From: Paracoccaceae bacterium
GTDB taxonomy: Bacteria > Pseudomonadota > Alphaproteobacteria > Rhodobacterales > Rhodobacteraceae
Direction of reading: 5' to 3'
Assembly: GCA_019090405.1 (NCBI GenBank)
Contig: JAHRVZ010000198.1
Location: forward strand, 1 to 32,507
Length of the DNA: 32,507 nt
A program made the position numbers and the translations under genes. The notes beneath the pieces are model-generated. The model worked only from the letters and a program-made list of their open reading frames with translations, had not been told where the DNA came from and did no database searches. Below, piece by piece: positions 5,454-28,512 of this stretch (position 1 is its first letter; the number at the start of each line of letters is the position of its first letter).

Positions 5454-7082
5454 ATGAACGGAACAATGATGCTCCAGCAGCTGACGATCAGCTCACTGAT
5501 TGCACATACAGCGCGTTATCACGGTAAAACACCAGTGATTTCGGTTGAGACAACGGGTGGAATTGCCCAAACCAATTGGGCCGAAATTGAACTGAACGCG
5601 CGCAAACTTGCGTCGGCATTGGAAACCCTGGGCATCAAAAAAGGCGAACGCTGCGCCACGATTGCGTGGAACAACCGCCGCCACCTTGAGATTTATTTTG
5701 GCGTGGCCGGGGCCGGCATGATTTGCCATACGATCAACCCGCGCCTGTTCCCCGAACAGCTTATCTATATCATCAACCACGCGCAGGATCAGGTGCTGTT
5801 TCTGGACCAGACTTTCCTGCCGATTGTCGCCAAATTGGGCGAACATCTGAAAACCGTCAAACATGTGGTCCTACTTGGCCCACGCGATGAGGCCGCTGCC
5901 GAAATGGTCGAAGGTCTGCTGTTTTACGACGAATTACTGGACGCCGAGGGCGACGATTACGTTTGGCCCGATATTGACGAAAACACGCCATCCAGCCTGT
6001 GTTACACGTCCGGCACCACCGGCCACCCCAAGGGTGTGCAATACACTCACCGCAGCAATATCTTGCATTCAATGGGGGCCAATCAAGCTGATGGGCTTGC
6101 GTTGTCTGCCCGTGATACCATTATGCCGGTTGTTCCGATGTTTCACGCCAATGCTTGGGGCGTTCCTTATGCGGTTGCCATGTCCGGGTCCAAACTGGTG
6201 CTACCGGGGCCAGGCTTGGACGGTGAAAGCCTTGTAAAATTGATTGATGAGCAAAAAGTAACAATGGCGATGGGTGTCCCGACGATCTGGATGGGCCTGC
6301 TCGCCGCATTGGAAGCCACCGGAAGCAAGGTAGAGTCCTTGAACCGGACCCTTGTTGGCGGTTCGGCATTGCCGAGTTCGATGCTCAAGGAATTCCGTGA
6401 GAAATACGATATTGAGCTGATTCATGGTTGGGGAATGACGGAAACCAGCCCGCTGGGGACGTTGAACCAATTGCTGCAAAAGCACGTGGACTTGCCCAAA
6501 GACCAGCAATACAAACTGCGCGAAGGTCAAGGACGTCCGCCTTTCGGAGTAGAGCTGCGTGTGGTCGACGAGAACGGCGCATTGCTGCCTGAGGACGGAG
6601 AAACCCAGGGCAATCTGCAAATTCGCGGCCATTGGATCATCGAGTCCTATTTTGGAGTGAATGAAACTGCGCTGACCGAAGACGGCTGGTTTGATTGTGG
6701 TGATGTAGCGACGATTGACCAGGATGGTTATGTGATCATCCGCGACCGCTCTAAGGACATAATCAAGTCCGGTGGCGAATGGATTTCTACGGTTGAACTA
6801 GAGGACATAGGCATTTCGCACCCACATGTGGCCAATGCAGCAGCTATCGCCGCGCGACACAAGAAATGGGATGAACGCCCGGTTCTGGTTGTGATCAAAG
6901 CCGAAGGTCAAACCCCGTCCGAGGCCGACATTCTGGACCATTTCGAGGGTCGCATCGCCAAATGGCAAATCCCGGACAAAGTGGTTTTTGTAGATGAATT
7001 GCCTATCGGGGGAACCGGCAAAGTGTTGAAAAACAAACTGCGGGATCAATTTGGCGACATACTTTGGGAAGAAAGCGCCTGA
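5454..7082 (+). CDS. AMP-forming acyl-CoA synthetase (long-chain / methylthiopropionyl-CoA ligase DmdB-like family)
   Basis: AMP-binding motif SSLCYTSGTTGHPKGVQYTHRS, GWGMTETSPLG, GWFDCGDVATID, and C-terminal GTGKVLKNKLR lysine motif. Confidence 0.93.
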   Translation: MNGTMMLQQLTISSLIAHTARYHGKTPVISVETTGGIAQTNWAEIELNARKLASALETLGIKKGERCATIAWNNRRHLEIYFGVAGAGMICHTINPRLFPEQLIYIINHAQDQVLFLDQTFLPIVAKLGEHLKTVKHVVLLGPRDEAAAEMVEGLLFYDELLDAEGDDYVWPDIDENTPSSLCYTSGTTGHPKGVQYTHRSNILHSMGANQADGLALSARDTIMPVVPMFHANAWGVPYAVAMSGSKLVLPGPGLDGESLVKLIDEQKVTMAMGVPTIWMGLLAALEATGSKVESLNRTLVGGSALPSSMLKEFREKYDIELIHGWGMTETSPLGTLNQLLQKHVDLPKDQQYKLREGQGRPPFGVELRVVDENGALLPEDGETQGNLQIRGHWIIESYFGVNETALTEDGWFDCGDVATIDQDGYVIIRDRSKDIIKSGGEWISTVELEDIGISHPHVANAAAIAARHKKWDERPVLVVIKAEGQTPSEADILDHFEGRIAKWQIPDKVVFVDELPIGGTGKVLKNKLRDQFGDILWEESA

Positions 7083-7095
7083 TTTTTCCAGCGCA

Positions 7096-8817
7096 ATGCA
7101 AGACTCAAAAATAGAGTTTCCCGAGTACGATATTGCATTGGCTGATCTGGCCCGGGCCAAAGATTCCTGGGCCAAATCGTCCATTGCAGATCGTATTCAG
7201 GTGCTGTTGGACATCAAGAATGCCTTGATGCCTGTCACGCAAACCTGGGTGGAAATTGCGTCACGCAAGAAATTGATCCCTCAGGGCGCAGCTGCCGAGG
7301 GTGAAGAATGGACATCAGGTCCATACGCATTGATGATGGCCTGCAATGGCCTGATCGAAACCCTGTCTGGGATGGACGGAAAGACGTTTCTGAACGGTCT
7401 TGCCACGCGTCAGACAGCAACCGGACAGCTGGCTGTCAAAGTGACCCCAAGCTCCATCTGGGACCACCTTTTGCTGTCCGGCATACGCGCCGAGGTTTGG
7501 ATGCAGCCAAGTGTAACCAAGGCCAATTTGCCCGACCATACAGCTAGTTCATATGGCATTCCTGCCAATCAGCGTGTCGGCAAGGTTGCGCTGGTGCTTG
7601 GGGCTGGCAACATTTCTTCAATCGCTCCACTGGATTGCTTTCAGAAGCTGTTCATTGAACATCAGGTGGTGGTGCTCAAACTTAACCCGGTTAACGACTA
7701 CTTGTTTGACGTTCTAAATGAAGCTCTCGCACCGCTTATCGAACACGATGCTTTGCGCATTGTCCGTGGTGATGGTGCGGCAGGAGCCTATCTGGCCACC
7801 CATCCGAACGTGGATGAAATACACATTACCGGAGCGATGGCGACACATGATCTGATCGTATGGGGTGCAGGGGCCGAAGGTAAGGCCAATAAGCAGGCCG
7901 GAACACCAATGAACACGCGCAGGATAACATCGGAATTGGGCGCAGTTTGTCCCACAATCGTGGTGCCAGGCCCATGGTCGAACGCAGACATAGCGTTTCA
8001 GGCCGAACACATTGCCAGTCAGAAAATGCACAATTCAGGGTTCAATTGCATTGCTTGCCAGGTACTTGTGATGCCTAAATCCTGGGATTTGTCCGGCCCA
8101 TTGCTCAGGGCCGTCAAGGCCGTCATCAGCAAAACAACGCGCCTGCCCTACTACCCCGGAGCCGAACAGCGGATGGATGATTTTGCCAGTCATTCCGATG
8201 AAACAATTTCGGTCCCAAGAGGCAAAGCCAAACCCGCAGTGATCACCGAAATTCGGGATCAGAACGATGAATGGTTCGAGAATAACGAGATTTTCTCCCC
8301 GGCGATGAGCATTTACAAAATCGAAGAAAACGACCCGGAAACCTATCTGAAAGCAGCTATTGAATATGCCAACAGTCGGCTACACGGAACATTGGGCGGC
8401 AATATCCTTGTTCATCCAAAAACCATCAAAGCCATTGGAAAACAAAGGTTTGAGCAGATAATTGGCGAATTCCGCTATGGAACTGTTGCGATCAATGCCT
8501 GGTCTGGATTGGGATTTAGCCTGACCGCTACGCCGTGGGGCGCGTTTCCCGGTCATACGCCTGAGGATGTTCAAAGCGGCATTGGAACCGTGCACAACAC
8601 ATTCATGTTTGACGCCTCTGAGCGCACCGTGGTTCAGGCTCCGTGGCGACCGTTTCCGCGATCTTTTCTTGCCGGTGAATGGACGATGCTGCCCAAGCCT
8701 CCTTGGTTTGTGACCAACAAAACCGCACAGAGAGTCGGCAAAGCGATGACAGGGTTTTATTACAAACCCAGCTTGCAAAAACTGCCTGCGCTTATCTTGG
8801 CAGCAATACGAGGGTAG
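7096..8817 (+). CDS. Divergent aldehyde dehydrogenase superfamily protein
   Basis: ORF track starts at TTG 7051, inside the upstream CDS; the ATG at 7096 gives MQDSKIEFPEYD and is preferred. ALDH-like features: VALVLGAGNISSIAPLDCFQKL, HITGAMATHD, SELGAVCPTIVV, GFNCIACQVLVM (candidate catalytic Cys region). Confidence 0.8.
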   Translation: MQDSKIEFPEYDIALADLARAKDSWAKSSIADRIQVLLDIKNALMPVTQTWVEIASRKKLIPQGAAAEGEEWTSGPYALMMACNGLIETLSGMDGKTFLNGLATRQTATGQLAVKVTPSSIWDHLLLSGIRAEVWMQPSVTKANLPDHTASSYGIPANQRVGKVALVLGAGNISSIAPLDCFQKLFIEHQVVVLKLNPVNDYLFDVLNEALAPLIEHDALRIVRGDGAAGAYLATHPNVDEIHITGAMATHDLIVWGAGAEGKANKQAGTPMNTRRITSELGAVCPTIVVPGPWSNADIAFQAEHIASQKMHNSGFNCIACQVLVMPKSWDLSGPLLRAVKAVISKTTRLPYYPGAEQRMDDFASHSDETISVPRGKAKPAVITEIRDQNDEWFENNEIFSPAMSIYKIEENDPETYLKAAIEYANSRLHGTLGGNILVHPKTIKAIGKQRFEQIIGEFRYGTVAINAWSGLGFSLTATPWGAFPGHTPEDVQSGIGTVHNTFMFDASERTVVQAPWRPFPRSFLAGEWTMLPKPPWFVTNKTAQRVGKAMTGFYYKPSLQKLPALILAAIRG

Positions 8818-8916: not shown

Positions 8917-9753
8917 GTGGTGGAGATGGGTGCGTCGACAAATGTCGCGCCAGTCATCATCAAACGGAAAAAGGTTATAGCTGGCGGCGGTCATCATGGC
9001 GGCGCATGGAAAGTCGCGTATGCGGACTTTGTCACAGCAATGATGGCTTTTTTCCTGTTGATGTGGCTGTTGAACGCGACGACTGAAAAACAACGAAAAG
9101 GACTGGCGGACTATTTTTCGCCTACGATTCCGATACATCGGATTTCCGGAGGAGGAGACGGTGCATTTGGTGGTAATGACATGTTTTCAGAGGATATTTT
9201 ACCTCTGGATGGATCTGGTGCAACTAACCGGAATCCCACCGAAGGTCGCAAAGCCCGCGGAGACTCTGGCGTCGACAAGAACGGTGTGGAAACGGATCAG
9301 TTCAGTAGCATCCAGGAGGCTCTAAAAGGCAAAAGTGGTGAGAGTCTTGTTGCTTCTGAGATGCTGAAACACATCCTGACCCGTGTCACAGATGAGGGGC
9401 TGATAATTGACATCTTCTCAACCGAAGAGAGCCCTCTTTTTGAAAAAGACAGTGACACTCCAAAACCCCTGCTGCGTGATCTGGCACGCATGATCGCACG
9501 GGTATCTGGGCAGGTAGTCAACAATATCGCGATTGAAGGCCACGTTAACGCCCATCCCCTGGTTTTGATCGAAAACCCGGTCTGGAGCCTGTCTGCCGCG
9601 CGCGCCACCCGTATGCGCCTGCTGCTCGAACAAGCTGGCCTTGAATCGAAACGGGTTCGCCGAGTTACCGGACATGCAGATAGAGAACCTGTTTTAAAAA
9701 ACACGATGGCGATTCGAAACAACAGGATCGAGGTGATTTTGCTACGCGAATAA
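8917..9753 (+). CDS. motB: Flagellar motor stator protein MotB (TM helix plus OmpA/MotB peptidoglycan-binding domain)
   Basis: VIIKRKKVIAGGGHHGGAWKVAYADFVTAMMAFFLLMWLLNAT contains the MotB TM with conserved Asp. C-terminal OmpA-like region. GTG start at 8917, or ATG at 8926. Confidence 0.93.
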   Translation: MVEMGASTNVAPVIIKRKKVIAGGGHHGGAWKVAYADFVTAMMAFFLLMWLLNATTEKQRKGLADYFSPTIPIHRISGGGDGAFGGNDMFSEDILPLDGSGATNRNPTEGRKARGDSGVDKNGVETDQFSSIQEALKGKSGESLVASEMLKHILTRVTDEGLIIDIFSTEESPLFEKDSDTPKPLLRDLARMIARVSGQVVNNIAIEGHVNAHPLVLIENPVWSLSAARATRMRLLLEQAGLESKRVRRVTGHADREPVLKNTMAIRNNRIEVILLRE

Positions 9754-18173: not shown

Positions 18174-18674
18174 ATGACCGAAACGGCAACGGAAATGTCA
18201 GACGCATCAGCAAAATCCGGAAAAATGCCAATAATTCTTGGCATTATTCTTGCAATCGGCGGCGCAGCTGGCGGATTTTTTGCAGTACAAAAGGGTATCA
18301 TTCCTTTGATTCCCTCTTCCCAAAACCCTGCGGCAGAACACGAAGTAAGTAGGTCGGAAATGCACAATACGGCTGATATCTCGTTTGTTGAAATCGAACC
18401 CATCATGATTTCTTTGAATGGGAACGGGCAAGTTCAACACTTGCGATTCCGCGCTCATCTTGAAGTCGGCAAGGCAGACGAATCAGATGTTGCTTTGCTA
18501 TTACCGCGGGTGGTCGACGTACTTAATGGTTATCTCAGGGCTCTGGAATTGGACGATTTGCGCGACCCCATGGCCTTAACCAAGTTGCGTGGCCAGATGT
18601 TGCGCCGTGTTCAAATTGTCGTCGGAAAAGATCGGGTTCGCGATCTTTTGATCATGGAATTCGTACTGAATTAG
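18174..18674 (+). CDS. fliL: Flagellar basal body-associated protein FliL
   Basis: 166 aa, single TM, ISFVEIEPIMISLNGNGQVQHLRFRAHLEVGKADESDVALLLPRVVDVLNGYLRAL...FVLN. Confidence 0.9.
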   Translation: MTETATEMSDASAKSGKMPIILGIILAIGGAAGGFFAVQKGIIPLIPSSQNPAAEHEVSRSEMHNTADISFVEIEPIMISLNGNGQVQHLRFRAHLEVGKADESDVALLLPRVVDVLNGYLRALELDDLRDPMALTKLRGQMLRRVQIVVGKDRVRDLLIMEFVLN

Positions 18675-18683
18675 GAAATTGTT

Positions 18684-19067
18684 GTGGAAATGATAGCAGA
18701 CATTCTTCTTGTTGCGGGTGCTTTAGGCGCCGGATTTTATTGTTTTATTTTGGCCCAGCGGCTCAATCGTTTCAGTGATTTGGAAAAAGGCGTTGGCGGT
18801 GCGGTGGCCGTGTTATCATCACAGGTTGATGACCTGAACAAATCTTTGCAATCCGCTCAGAGCGTTTCTGCCGCATCAAGTACGGCATTGGATCAGCTAA
18901 CTAACCGCGCCGAAGATGTTTCAAAACGGCTCGAATTATTGATGGCCTCAATGCATGATGTGCCGGACCCAATTGCCGAACATTCGGTCACTCAGGAAAC
19001 GACGCGCCCAGATTCCCAACCGATGTTTTCACGACGGATGCGTGGGCAAAGCGGAGCTTCTCAATGA
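18684..19067 (+). CDS. Small single-TM, coiled-coil protein of unknown function in the fliL-motE-motA operon (DUF6468-like by resemblance)
   Basis: 127 aa; N-terminal TM (IADILLVAGALGAGFYCFILAQRL) followed by a helical region; GTG start at 18684 or ATG at 18690; 4-bp overlap with next gene. Confidence 0.7.
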   Translation: MEMIADILLVAGALGAGFYCFILAQRLNRFSDLEKGVGGAVAVLSSQVDDLNKSLQSAQSVSAASSTALDQLTNRAEDVSKRLELLMASMHDVPDPIAEHSVTQETTRPDSQPMFSRRMRGQSGASQ

Positions 19068-19663
19068 CAGCATCCAAAAAAAATGGCCGCCGCGTTCGTG
19101 GCGGATCCCTAGTGCTGATCTCAATTCTGCTCTTCGGCTCAGCATTTTTACGGATAGGAGTTCAGGCCGGACCAGCAATTTCCAAAGAGGTTCAGCAAGC
19201 AACCGAACAGAACGAGCCATCTGGAATAATAATGACGCCAGCTATTGCTGAGCTGAACGATCTGCAACCAATGCTGGCTGCATTTCAGGCACGCGAGATG
19301 AAAATCAGCGCACAGGAAGCTCAAATACTGGATCGCATGAAAGCACTTTCGATCGCCGAATCAGCGCTTGACTTGAAGCTGGCAGAATTGGTCAGTGTTG
19401 AAGAATCTTTGCGAGCGACACTAGCTTTGGCTGATGGAGCAGCAGAAGGAGACTTAGACAGATTGACCGGTGTCTATGAAAAAATGAAACCCAAAAATGC
19501 TGCCGTTTTGTTCGAAGAAATGGATCCAAAATTCGCCGCTGGTTTCCTTGCGAGAATGCGCCCCGAAGCAGCAGCAAACATTCTGGCAGGTTTAACTCCA
19601 CAGATGGCTTATTCTATCAGCCTGATTTTTGCAGGGCGAAATGTGAACGTTCCGAAAGACTGA
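19064..19663 (+). CDS. MotE-like protein with MgtE N-domain-like repeats
   Basis: N-terminal TM, coiled-coil, then LTGVYEKMKPKNAAVLFEEMDPKFAAGFLARMRPEAAANILAGLTPQMAYSISLIFAGRN; adjacent to motA. Confidence 0.75.
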   Translation: MTASKKNGRRVRGGSLVLISILLFGSAFLRIGVQAGPAISKEVQQATEQNEPSGIIMTPAIAELNDLQPMLAAFQAREMKISAQEAQILDRMKALSIAESALDLKLAELVSVEESLRATLALADGAAEGDLDRLTGVYEKMKPKNAAVLFEEMDPKFAAGFLARMRPEAAANILAGLTPQMAYSISLIFAGRNVNVPKD

Positions 19664-19740
19664 ATTTCCAGCCACGCTTAGGAAATCTTAAGTTTAAGGA
19701 GTCAAACAGGAAGAACCACAATTAGAGCGGAGCACCATTC

Positions 19741-20610
19741 ATGATCGGATTAGTCGGAATAGCCATTATCTTCATCATGGTATTCGGCGGGTATTTAGCC
19801 GCAGGTGGGAAAATGGGCATTATTTTCAAAACCTTACCGTTTGAAATGATGATGATTGGTGGCGCAGCTGTGGGGTCGTTTTTGATTGCCAACAATTTGG
19901 CAGCGATTAAACACACGGTAAAAGACATTGGAAAAGTATTCAAAGGCACCAAGTGGAATCCAGATGACTATCGGGATTTACTATGTCTTTTGTTTGCTTT
20001 GATTAGAGTTTCCCAACAAAGCCCTATGGAGGCCGAAAAACACATCGAAGAGCCCGAAACTTCGACAATTTTTGGCCAATACCCCAAAATATCTAAAGAT
20101 ATAGAAGCGGTGCATTTGATATGTGATACAATGCGCTCAGCGTCGATGAATTATGATGACCCACACCAGGTCGAGGAAGTTCTTGAAAAACGAATTGAGG
20201 CAAATTTTCATCATGCAATGCACTCCAGTCACGCCTTGCAAACCGTTGCTGATGGGCTTCCGGCGCTAGGAATTGTTGCGGCTGTGCTTGGCGTTATCAA
20301 AACTATGGGGTCAATTGACCAACCCCCTGAAGTTCTTGGGAAAATGATTGGCGGTGCCCTGGTTGGAACTTTTCTGGGCGTATTTCTTGCTTATGGCCTT
20401 GTTGGGCCGTTCGCTGAAAAGGTCAAATCCGTGATCGAGGAAGATGGTCATTTCTACCAACTCATACGCGAAGTTTTAGTCGCAAATTTACACAGCCATT
20501 CCCCGGCAATCTGCATCGAGGTAGGGCGCCAGAACACACCTTCGCATATGCGCCCGGATTTTGGCGATCTGGAAGAGGCGCTAAAGCGTGTCAAACAGGA
20601 CGCGGCATGA
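19741..20610 (+). CDS. motA: Flagellar motor stator protein MotA
   Basis: MIGLVGIAIIFIMVFGGYLAAGGKMGII...ALQTVADGLPALGIVAAVLGVIKTMGSIDQPPEVLGKMIGGALVGTFLGVFLAYGLVGP. Confidence 0.97.
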   Translation: MIGLVGIAIIFIMVFGGYLAAGGKMGIIFKTLPFEMMMIGGAAVGSFLIANNLAAIKHTVKDIGKVFKGTKWNPDDYRDLLCLLFALIRVSQQSPMEAEKHIEEPETSTIFGQYPKISKDIEAVHLICDTMRSASMNYDDPHQVEEVLEKRIEANFHHAMHSSHALQTVADGLPALGIVAAVLGVIKTMGSIDQPPEVLGKMIGGALVGTFLGVFLAYGLVGPFAEKVKSVIEEDGHFYQLIREVLVANLHSHSPAICIEVGRQNTPSHMRPDFGDLEEALKRVKQDAA

Positions 20611-22868
20611 ACCTGAGGTCATTGGTTCTTATTGCCAGTCTATTTATAGCGCAGCCGGTGTTTGCCCGCATAATTGACATACGATCAGGAGAACATAATA
20701 CGTTTTCCCGAATCGTCCTTAATATCCCTACGGGAACCAATTGGACTTTGACACAAACCGGTAGGCAGGCTGAATTATCCTTACAACTGCCCGATATTCA
20801 ATTTGATACAAGTCAAGTTTTTAGCCGAATTCCAAGAAGTCGTCTACTTGGATTGACACAAGTGCAACCGGGCAAGGCACTACAAATAACTATGGGCTGT
20901 CTTTGCAAAGCCGTGGGGTTTTTGCAAGATGGTACGCTATTGGTCATAGACATACATGACCCGAAAACGCCGATTAGTTCCCCCTCACTTACCTTGGGCG
21001 CAACACCGGTTTTGAGGTTTAGCAACGTTACTCCATTGGCCTCTCATAGCCCAATATTTAAATGGAAATTGAAACCAGAAACATCTATCGAAATCGCTGA
21101 ACCCGCGTCGTTTGCGAAGCCAAGACCAACGTCGGTAATTGACTTACCAACACAGGAAAACCTAACAAACGTGAACGCATCAGAATTGCGTTTACTTTCT
21201 CAAATTGACCGAGCAACAGCTCAAGGATTGTTGCATCCGAATTTAGACATTTCCAACCCAGTGAACGACAATGCAATACTTCAGATTGGCGAAAACGACA
21301 CTCACGAACGCCACCAGAAAATCGATACACCTTCGACTGTCAGTATGACTGTGATATCCAGCATGGATCGTGATCTGGCTGACGACCGCGGTCATGGTCA
21401 ACTGAGAGAAGATCAACTTCCATGCCTACCCGTCGACCTTGTCAATTTACCCGATTGGGGCAATACACTGTCGTTTGGAACGCAAATTGGAAGCCGACGT
21501 TCCCATTTGTATGGTGAATTTGACAACGTCAATCAACAGAGCGTGATTGAATTGACCAAAAATTTGTTGTTCTTTGGGTTTGGCGCGGAAGCAAGAACAA
21601 CGCTCAATCTGTTTACTGGCGAAGACTCGAAACGCCAAGTGCTGACTGCTCTTGCCGAGATTATGGACAATGGGCACATCGTTACCCGAAATCCGTTTGT
21701 GGGACAAAGTGCTTGTAACAATGATGTCGCGTTATGGGCTTATCTTGCTCTTTCTGATGCCTCAACTTCTGAAGAATCCAATCCCGAGGCAATCCTGACA
21801 GCATTCGCGCGCCTGCCTCACCATCTCCGAGTTTTGTTGGGCCCGCTTTTGGTCGGCAAATTTTCAAAGTCAGGCGATATCCAATCTATGGATATTGTAT
21901 CGCGGACAGCGGCTCGGGCATTGAACAGATCGGACCCTGCTTTGGATCTTGCACAGGCAAATGCAAATATGCAGCACGGGGACCCCATAGCTGCGGTAGA
22001 TCAAATGGCCGCTATCGCACAGTCAGGAACGGAATATTCACCACAAGCTTTGATTGATTTGGTCATTGCACAAACTGAGGCCGATCAAACAGTGTCACCG
22101 GATATTCCCGATTTGATCGCTGCCTATGAGTTAGAACACCGAAAGTCCGACCTGGGACCCGCACTGCAACAAGCGCATATTCTATCTTTGGCAATTACCG
22201 GGCGATTTTCCGAAGCATTCAAAAATTATTATGAACAAAGCTCGGACGACAGCAATTCAAGTAAAGACTATACGCTGACCCAGATATTAACCATTTTGAC
22301 CAAACGCGCCGATGACATCACATTTTTGCGCTACACGCTGTTCCAGATTGAGCAAACAAAATCGAATTTTCCGGTTGAGTTGCAAAATTTGTTGGCAGCC
22401 CGTTTGATTGAGCAAGGGTTTTCTTCACAGGCATCGATAGTTCTGGCAGGACAAGAGGGACAGGAAAGCGGTGATCGCAGATTGATGAATGCTCAAATCG
22501 CAATCACTGAAAACCTGCCGCGCCGCGCGCTCGTCGAGCTTTTTGGAGCCAGTGGCGCGCAGGCAGATGGTATTCGCGCCCAGGCGTTCTTAGACATTGG
22601 AGAATATGAAAATGCAGGCATTTCGCAAGAAGCGAGCGGTACTGATCCGGGGCGCTCGTTTTGGCATGCTGAGGATTGGGACGCCGTCATCCGCCAAAAG
22701 GATTCTCCGTTTTCAGAACCAGCCATATTGGCCAAATCCTTAAGAGACAGCAGCGACATTCCTGAAGATCGCGGCTCTCTTGCTTATGCGCGGGAAATTG
22801 AAAATAGCAGTCTGGCCACCCGATCTGACATATCAGATCTGTTGAACATAATTGGACCACTGCAATAG
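20607..22868 (+). CDS. Large secreted protein with AMIN-like N-terminal domain and helical-repeat-like region; function unknown, possibly MotC-like
   Basis: 753 aa; signal peptide MNLRSLVLIASLFIAQPVFA, then IIDIRSGEHNTFSRIVLNIPTGTNWTLTQTGRQAELSLQL...GTLLVIDIHDPK (AMIN-like); long alpha-rich C-terminal part; ATGA overlap with motA. Confidence 0.75.
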   Translation: MNLRSLVLIASLFIAQPVFARIIDIRSGEHNTFSRIVLNIPTGTNWTLTQTGRQAELSLQLPDIQFDTSQVFSRIPRSRLLGLTQVQPGKALQITMGCLCKAVGFLQDGTLLVIDIHDPKTPISSPSLTLGATPVLRFSNVTPLASHSPIFKWKLKPETSIEIAEPASFAKPRPTSVIDLPTQENLTNVNASELRLLSQIDRATAQGLLHPNLDISNPVNDNAILQIGENDTHERHQKIDTPSTVSMTVISSMDRDLADDRGHGQLREDQLPCLPVDLVNLPDWGNTLSFGTQIGSRRSHLYGEFDNVNQQSVIELTKNLLFFGFGAEARTTLNLFTGEDSKRQVLTALAEIMDNGHIVTRNPFVGQSACNNDVALWAYLALSDASTSEESNPEAILTAFARLPHHLRVLLGPLLVGKFSKSGDIQSMDIVSRTAARALNRSDPALDLAQANANMQHGDPIAAVDQMAAIAQSGTEYSPQALIDLVIAQTEADQTVSPDIPDLIAAYELEHRKSDLGPALQQAHILSLAITGRFSEAFKNYYEQSSDDSNSSKDYTLTQILTILTKRADDITFLRYTLFQIEQTKSNFPVELQNLLAARLIEQGFSSQASIVLAGQEGQESGDRRLMNAQIAITENLPRRALVELFGASGAQADGIRAQAFLDIGEYENAGISQEASGTDPGRSFWHAEDWDAVIRQKDSPFSEPAILAKSLRDSSDIPEDRGSLAYAREIENSSLATRSDISDLLNIIGPLQ

Positions 22869-22957: not shown

Positions 22958-23692
22958 ATGCCTCGATTTTTCAGGGCCACAATGGCTCTAATAACCGTGT
23001 TTCTTTGCGGACCAGTAGAAGCCAACAAGAATGACGTTGAGTCGACTTTATGTGATTCCGCCGCACGCATTGCATCTCAGGAGTTTGGGATTCCCGTTGA
23101 AGTGCTACTGGCGCTAACCAGAACGGAAACCGGACGCAACGGGAAACATGGTCTTTATCCGTGGCCATGGACCGTCAACATGGAGGGCCCCGGATATTGG
23201 TTTGGAAATCGTGATGAGGCGGTGAATTTTACGCTGGATCACCTTAATAACGGAGCAATCAGTTTTGATATCGGGTGTTTTCAAATCAACTATAAATGGC
23301 ATGGCGAACACTTTGATTCCGTCGAAGACATGTTTGTACCCCGTTTGAACGCCAACTATGCGGCCCAGTTTCTAACGCAACTTTTTTTTGAGTTTGGCAG
23401 TTGGTCAGCCGCTGCCGGAGCATTCCATTCACGTACACCTTCAAAAGCAGAATCCTACATTGCTCGCTTTGATAGAATCCGATTGATCATACGCAACGAA
23501 CCTCCTGAGACGGTACCTGTCAACTTACCTCCACTTGGTATTTTTGATCGCCGGGGAGATTTGAGAATGGTCACAGCGTCATTGATCCCTCTTGTTTCTG
23601 GCGGTGCTCCAAAACTTGGGTCTCTATTTCCGAATGTTAGCGCTTCTGTTGGCATCAACCGCCAAAACGACACGCAAAATCAGGGCAGCTAG
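22958..23692 (+). CDS. Secreted lytic transglycosylase (SLT-type) within flagellar operon
   Basis: Signal peptide; IASQEFGIPVEVLLALTRTETGRNGKHGLYPWPWTVNMEGPGYWF...DIGCFQINYKWHG...NANYAAQFLTQLFFEFGSWSAAAGAFHSR. Confidence 0.88.
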   Translation: MPRFFRATMALITVFLCGPVEANKNDVESTLCDSAARIASQEFGIPVEVLLALTRTETGRNGKHGLYPWPWTVNMEGPGYWFGNRDEAVNFTLDHLNNGAISFDIGCFQINYKWHGEHFDSVEDMFVPRLNANYAAQFLTQLFFEFGSWSAAAGAFHSRTPSKAESYIARFDRIRLIIRNEPPETVPVNLPPLGIFDRRGDLRMVTASLIPLVSGGAPKLGSLFPNVSASVGINRQNDTQNQGS

Positions 23693-28038: not shown

Positions 28039-28512
28039 TCAGACGTCTTGTCGGGCGATCCCAACAATCAGGACGTTAGAAATGTCATTGCCAAATTCCA
28101 GTTGAGCCACCTCACGTAGAGCCGTTCGCAAGGTGTCCAGAGTATTAGAACTGGTAAATGAACCATCAAAACCCCCCATATTGGCATGGTCGAACATGAC
28201 CTGTAAAAACGCATCCCGCAGTTTTGGTTCGCGGGAATAAATTGTTTCGGTCATGCCGGGTACAGTTTCAAGACTAAGGGTCATAACCACAAGCGCTGAA
28301 ACCTGGTCTCCGCTAACGACGGGCACCACAAATTGATTGTTTAGTTTGACATATTCTGGTTCGCCCGCAGGCGTTTCGTGACTATCAGTCGGAACATGTT
28401 CTGTTTGCTCGTCACTGTTATCAGTCGGATCAACACCCAGAAAGATTCCGGCACCAACACCTGCGCCAATACCGACCAACAGAAACAAAACTGGTATGAT
28501 TTTCTTTAGCAT
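28039..28512 (-). CDS. Second FliL-like protein
   Basis: 157 aa, single N-terminal TM, YVKLNNQFVVPVVSGDQVSALVVMTLSLETVPG...LRDAFLQVMFDHAN...LRTALREVAQLEFGNDISNVLIVGI. Confidence 0.75.
   Translation of the reverse strand: MLKKIIPVLFLLVGIGAGVGAGIFLGVDPTDNSDEQTEHVPTDSHETPAGEPEYVKLNNQFVVPVVSGDQVSALVVMTLSLETVPGMTETIYSREPKLRDAFLQVMFDHANMGGFDGSFTSSNTLDTLRTALREVAQLEFGNDISNVLIVGIARQDV

Follow-up and report, generated by a model that had tools for sequence, protein, structure and literature searches.

What is the apparently secreted protein whose gene begins within the stop codon of motA in a flagellar gene cluster of a Paracoccaceae bacterium? The cluster lies on contig JAHRVZ010000198.1, of which we analyzed positions 1 to 32,507 (the window); the closest named relative of its genome is a metagenome-assembled genome of the Rhodobacteraceae. 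The protein has 753 amino acids. A reading made from the DNA letters and their open reading frames (ORFs), the sequence-only reading, had proposed a periplasmic partner of MotE with an AMIN-like N-terminus and a helical-repeat body, which positions or activates the flagellar stator. We conclude, with a probability of about 0.9, that it is the MotK of a Rhodobacteraceae bacterium and acts with MotE and MotB in recruiting or activating the stator. The proposal is supported: a protein of this description, MotK, is known from Cereibacter sphaeroides (PMC10954123). The stator role was already published for MotK in 2024, so the idea is not new. The window MotK adds one unexceptional member to a family described only recently, and the new details are modest.

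We identify the protein as MotK because its gene order and domain make-up match those of C. sphaeroides, where the order is fliL2, pflI, motE, motA2, motK (Velez-Gonzalez et al. 2024, PMC10954123). The MotK of that species is a periplasmic protein of 652 residues that combines an AMIN-like N-terminus, behind a signal peptide, with a body resembling tetratricopeptide repeats (TPR), and similar proteins of low similarity are stated to occur in Roseobacteraceae (PMC10954123). The window has the order fliL-pflI-motE-motA-motK on the forward strand, with the 753-residue gene directly after motA. The run starts with fliL (18174-18674; Pfam FliL 47.1 bits, cut-off 24.6). The next gene (18684-19067) matches DUF6468 with E = 0.001, below the cut-off, and has the position of WS8N_12050/pflI in C. 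sphaeroides on comparison of the order with PMC10954123; it is 80% identical to its neighboring counterpart in Glo_4, where the order is preserved. Then come motE (19064-19663), motA (19741-20610), encoding a stator ion-channel subunit of the MotA1 type (TIGR03818 360.3 bits, cut-off 303.8), and motK (20607-22868), whose ATG start lies inside the motA stop (ATGA, 20607-20610). The positions given earlier for motE, motA, the long ORF and its 4-bp overlap proved exact.

The protein begins MNLRSLVLIASLFIAQPVFA, and residues 1-20 (20607-20666) appear by eye to be a Sec-type signal peptide. An AMIN-like domain, defined by profile searches, follows in residues 20-125 (20664-20981) and includes the motif RSGEHxxFSR and C98xC100. 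Aligned with hhalign, the N-terminal segment alone (73 sequences) matched AMIN amidases from relatives over 98 columns with Prob 92.6 and P = 4.5e-7; when the alignment was limited to the 20 Rhodobacteraceae sequences, the values fell to Prob 48.6 and P = 1.8e-4. A 60-sequence profile of the segment run against all PDB chains gave PilQ as the top match, with an E of 9.1e-8 summed over several weak domains, followed by Slr0280 (E = 0.0066); AmiC gave E = 1.5. Among those 60 segments, Pfam AMIN-like matches 29 and AMIN 7, and the full MotK profile also retrieves genuine proteins that combine Amidase_3 with AMIN. The AMIN identity of the N-terminus, proposed earlier, is thus supported by profile searches with amidases, PilQ and Pfam. 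An AlphaFold2 model of this part, made from two alignment rows, has a predicted local distance difference test (pLDDT) score of 55. A Foldseek search with that model gave small heat-shock beta-sandwiches, none with E < 1e-3; the 50 matches listed include no AMIN structure.

The helical body stands on a weaker footing. In a poor AlphaFold2 model of the whole protein (pLDDT 38), beta structure covers residues 35-116, coil extends to about 282 and helices fill residues 283-670 (21453-22616), the putative TPR- or solenoid-like region. TPR models match weakly in six to seven of 20 relatives, and the MotK profile gives solenoid matches in the PDB. The proposed helical repeats have tentative support from predicted secondary structure and from the weak matches in relatives, with low confidence in the model itself. 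C273, just before the helical region, and C370 within it are invariant in all 20 MotKs, and C98 and C100 are present in 18 of the 20; these conserved cysteines suggest disulphides.

Could the ORF instead encode an unrelated envelope protein that shares the operon by chance? No Pfam or NCBIfam family reached its cut-off in a single-sequence search, as such a protein would allow, and a single-sequence search of the PDB gave no useful match. Its distribution argues strongly the other way. Searched as a single sequence, it matches in 20 of 41 genomes, the window's own included, all of the same family. At the loci inspected, motA is followed by the matching gene, and the overlap with the motA stop is kept in 18 of the 20 members, window included, and across genera. 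With a 20-sequence profile, MotK is detected in 134 of the 199 Rhodobacteraceae genomes searched. MotA1 is above cut-off in 142, and both are present in 132 (Fisher P = 4e-36, which ignores shared ancestry). Given relatives in 134 of 199 genomes and the overlap in 18 of 20, the ORF is not a chance one, and relatives lie beside motE in other families. We regard an unrelated protein as very improbable. The sequence-only reading had also staked its case on the family being uncommon in genomes without flagella. MotA1 is present in 132 of the 134 genomes with MotK, and in a wider sample of the class a long MotK-like protein occurs in 56 genomes, each of which encodes FlhA or has flagellar genes around the MotK-like gene. 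This restriction to flagellated genomes leaves the proposal unrefuted. Outside the closest relative, identity to the window is 19-33% for MotK compared with 63-83% for MotA; on these sequences, MotK is diverging fast. A motA-motK run also lies inside a flagellar cluster on the 137-kb plasmid of Paroceanicella profunda (NZ_CP040822.1), where MotK, its start overlapping the motA stop, is annotated as a hypothetical protein. The identification thus names, and gives a testable role to, a gene that public records such as this one still call hypothetical.

The same profile reaches beyond the family. In a class sample of 190 genomes it finds long proteins in 56, two Rhodobacteraceae counted, most of them in open frames of ~930-1430 residues. 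FlhA is present in 51 of the 56; in the remaining five, the MotK-like gene lies among flagellar genes. Outside Rhodobacteraceae, most MotK-like loci have motE and fliL adjoining. At six loci in small genomes (L117, L130, L135, L138, L140 and L161) BLAST shows no flagellar neighbors for the MotK-like gene, with FlhA elsewhere in the genome; Pfam identifies unrelated adjacent genes at L140 (TolB, phosphofructokinase) and L117 (methyltransferase, acyl-CoA dehydrogenase). Another 62 FlhA-positive genomes in the sample gave no long MotK-like match, which may reflect divergence, loss or replacement, for example by MotC. The number of AMIN segments also varies. With a second-round model there is one in each of the 20 Rhodobacteraceae MotKs, whereas 38 of the 50 long homologues from the class sample have two or three. 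A count of three is uncertain, since the third segment is weak (mostly 8-21 bits) and segments of this kind went into the second-round model; the model made from Rhodobacteraceae only had already shown tandem pairs. Tandem segments, two or three in number, occur in the MotK-like proteins at L109, L111, L118, L128, L136, L146 and others. By BLAST, Velez-Gonzalez et al. saw no similarity between MotK and the Caulobacteraceae proteins (PMC10954123), and Feng et al. linked the two by structure. Since earlier BLAST found nothing and Feng et al. relied on structure, a link to other families by sequence profile is a modest strengthening.

The MotE of the window (COG3334 family) has a signal or anchor segment, a coiled-coil stretch predicted by eye and a C-terminal MgtE_N/ARM-like domain. 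The earlier description of a MotE-like gene holds, but not that of MgtE-N-like repeats: there is a single match, at residues 135-182, that barely passes (26.0 bits, cut-off 25.9). Membership of MotE is better supported by synteny and by relatives, which are found at the corresponding place in most loci whose flanks are long enough, than by the domain score.

Several observations weigh against the assignment. The window MotK is likened to that of C. sphaeroides by gene order and described domains, not by sequence. There is no usable structure, the whole-protein model (pLDDT 38) being made from three alignment rows, and the genome that contains the window is 75% complete and split into 458 contigs. 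Ten MotA1-positive Rhodobacteraceae genomes have no MotK match. In six of the seven such loci examined, MotA is ~48-53% identical to that of the window and there is no fliL or motE nearby. A MotA of this kind also stands at a second MotA locus of a genome that has MotK elsewhere (G106); the six loci probably represent a different flagellar type. No named MotC was found among the ORFs scanned in two loci with this other type of MotA (L102 and L103), and a TPR protein in L102 only. Genome G024 has the order fliL-pflI-motE-motA-flhA without MotK (locus L099); a recognizable MotK is therefore not always present where MotE and MotA are. At positions 7626-8333 of that locus a 235-residue ORF with no MotK match stands in the place of MotK and likewise overlaps the motA stop. 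Finally, the window MotE has no cysteine, whereas work on C. sphaeroides and Sinorhizobium meliloti reports that MotE depends on one for its stability: the protein is destabilized by C20A (mature numbering) in the former and C53A in the latter, and this cysteine links the dimer. The MotE of the closest relative, Glo_4 (L025, 4458-5054), also has none. As 36 of 55 collected MotE sequences lack cysteine, its absence is characteristic of the lineage and not a mistake in the sequence, and the cysteine does not define the family.

We think it fairly probable that MotK is one family recognizable by sequence across much of the Alphaproteobacteria, ancestrally beside motE and with a lineage-dependent number of AMIN segments, so that copy number may tune anchoring of the stator scaffold, and that MotE of this lineage works without the dimer-linking cysteine that is regarded as necessary.

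How might MotK act? In C. sphaeroides, motE and motK mutants have filaments and do not swim; MotE, MotK and MotB2 bind one another in vitro, and polar localization of MotK-sfGFP requires MotA2/MotB2 (PMC10954123). The expected partner here is motB (8917-9753, forward strand; MotB_plug 69.7 bits, cut-off 24), the interaction being known only for MotB2 of C. sphaeroides (PMC10954123). By extension from that species, the helical-repeat body of MotK would bind the coiled coil of MotE and the periplasmic part of MotB, and the AMIN domain, on a linker of ~155 residues, would anchor the complex near peptidoglycan. MotE would form a ring that MotK bridges to MotB. The complex would then either bring the MotA/MotB stator to the rotor or unplug it, and thereby allow the flagellum to turn; a cell without MotK would be expected to have a flagellum but no rotation. 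Deletion of CC_2058/fssB in Caulobacter leaves cells paralyzed, with stator-dependent signaling lost.

In later papers MotE is assigned to the E-ring (FlgY/FlbB), and MotK is regarded as a spoke resembling PflA. Evidence for the E-ring comes from Campylobacterota and Borrelia, that for the PflA spoke from Campylobacterota; by analogy the MotE and MotK of the window may be placed likewise. MotK might then be mainly structural, a solenoid that spans the gap between the MotE and stator rings and fixes the radius at which stators sit, with the AMIN domain binding another motor protein and not peptidoglycan. In PflA an AMIN-like beta-sandwich is followed by a flexible loop and TPRs, an order of parts that MotK appears to share; PflA binds FlgY, the counterpart of MotE, and, with its loop, PflB, and its loss removes the stators. 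Yet C. sphaeroides MotK is not localized without MotA2/MotB2, unlike a scaffold formed before stators, and no direct sequence match of MotK to PflA was found: PDB searches with the full-length and AMIN profiles gave no PflA chain. We consider a mainly structural role a real possibility, at slightly less than even odds. The dependence on MotA2/MotB2, with the binding of MotB2, accords with MotK being chiefly an activator that holds MotB plug-open and bound to peptidoglycan once the stator arrives. Plug mutations of the stator bypass a related defect in Caulobacter, that of fssA; against this, the bypass was shown for fssA and not fssB, and the fssA fssB double mutant stayed non-motile. Such a predominantly activating role is a tentative suggestion, with odds of roughly one in three.

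The flagellar cluster of the window includes motB, flgE, flgK, flgL, flgI, fliP, fliN, fliF, fliL, the pflI-like gene, motE, motA, motK, an SLT-like gene, flhA, fliR, flhB, flgH, flgA, flgG and flgF. The lytic transglycosylase-like SLT gene (22958-23692, forward strand; E = 0.0012, below the cut-off) often stands between motK and flhA. A relative comes next after motK in about half of the compared loci and was not found in the remaining ones. A second FliL-like gene adjoins flgH (28039-28512; 21.6 bits, under the Pfam cut-off of 24.6), and the Paroceanicella plasmid (L195) also has a FliL-family gene after flgH. Adjoining motB and an AMP-binding enzyme gene, a 588-residue ORF (7051-8817) has only a partial match to aldehyde dehydrogenase (residues 230-344, Pfam 46.4 bits).

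Among known systems, MotC of S. meliloti resembles MotK in being periplasmic, TPR-rich according to a review, a partner of MotE and needed for rotation. Unlike MotK it has no AMIN domain, is encoded after motB and is reported absent from C. sphaeroides. The 753-residue protein is thus not a MotC, since its gene follows motA and it has an AMIN domain, in keeping with the earlier view of a sequence unrelated to MotC or highly diverged from it. CC_2058/FssB of Caulobacter crescentus, a proposed distant homologue likened by description, is a secreted TPR protein with an AMIN-like N-terminus, adjoins motE (CC_2059) and has a paralyzed mutant; the profile-linked proteins of other families mostly have ~930-1430 residues, with AMIN segments numbering two or three. 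With PflA of Campylobacter jejuni and Helicobacter pylori, MotK has in common the AMIN-like domain, the loop and a putative TPR body; PflA has FlgY, the MotE counterpart, as partner and is needed for stators, although the Campylobacter motor also has PflB, a cage and disks. The nearest likeness is MotK of the C. sphaeroides Fla2 system (RSWS8N_12065, UniProt Q3IY86), with the same place after motA, AMIN-like N-terminus and disordered linker, and with a signal peptide and helical body that are putative here, in 652 residues compared with 753 here. With a profile that finds counterparts in many alphaproteobacterial families, stator scaffolds should be easier to compare between Alphaproteobacteria, Campylobacterota and Spirochaetota.

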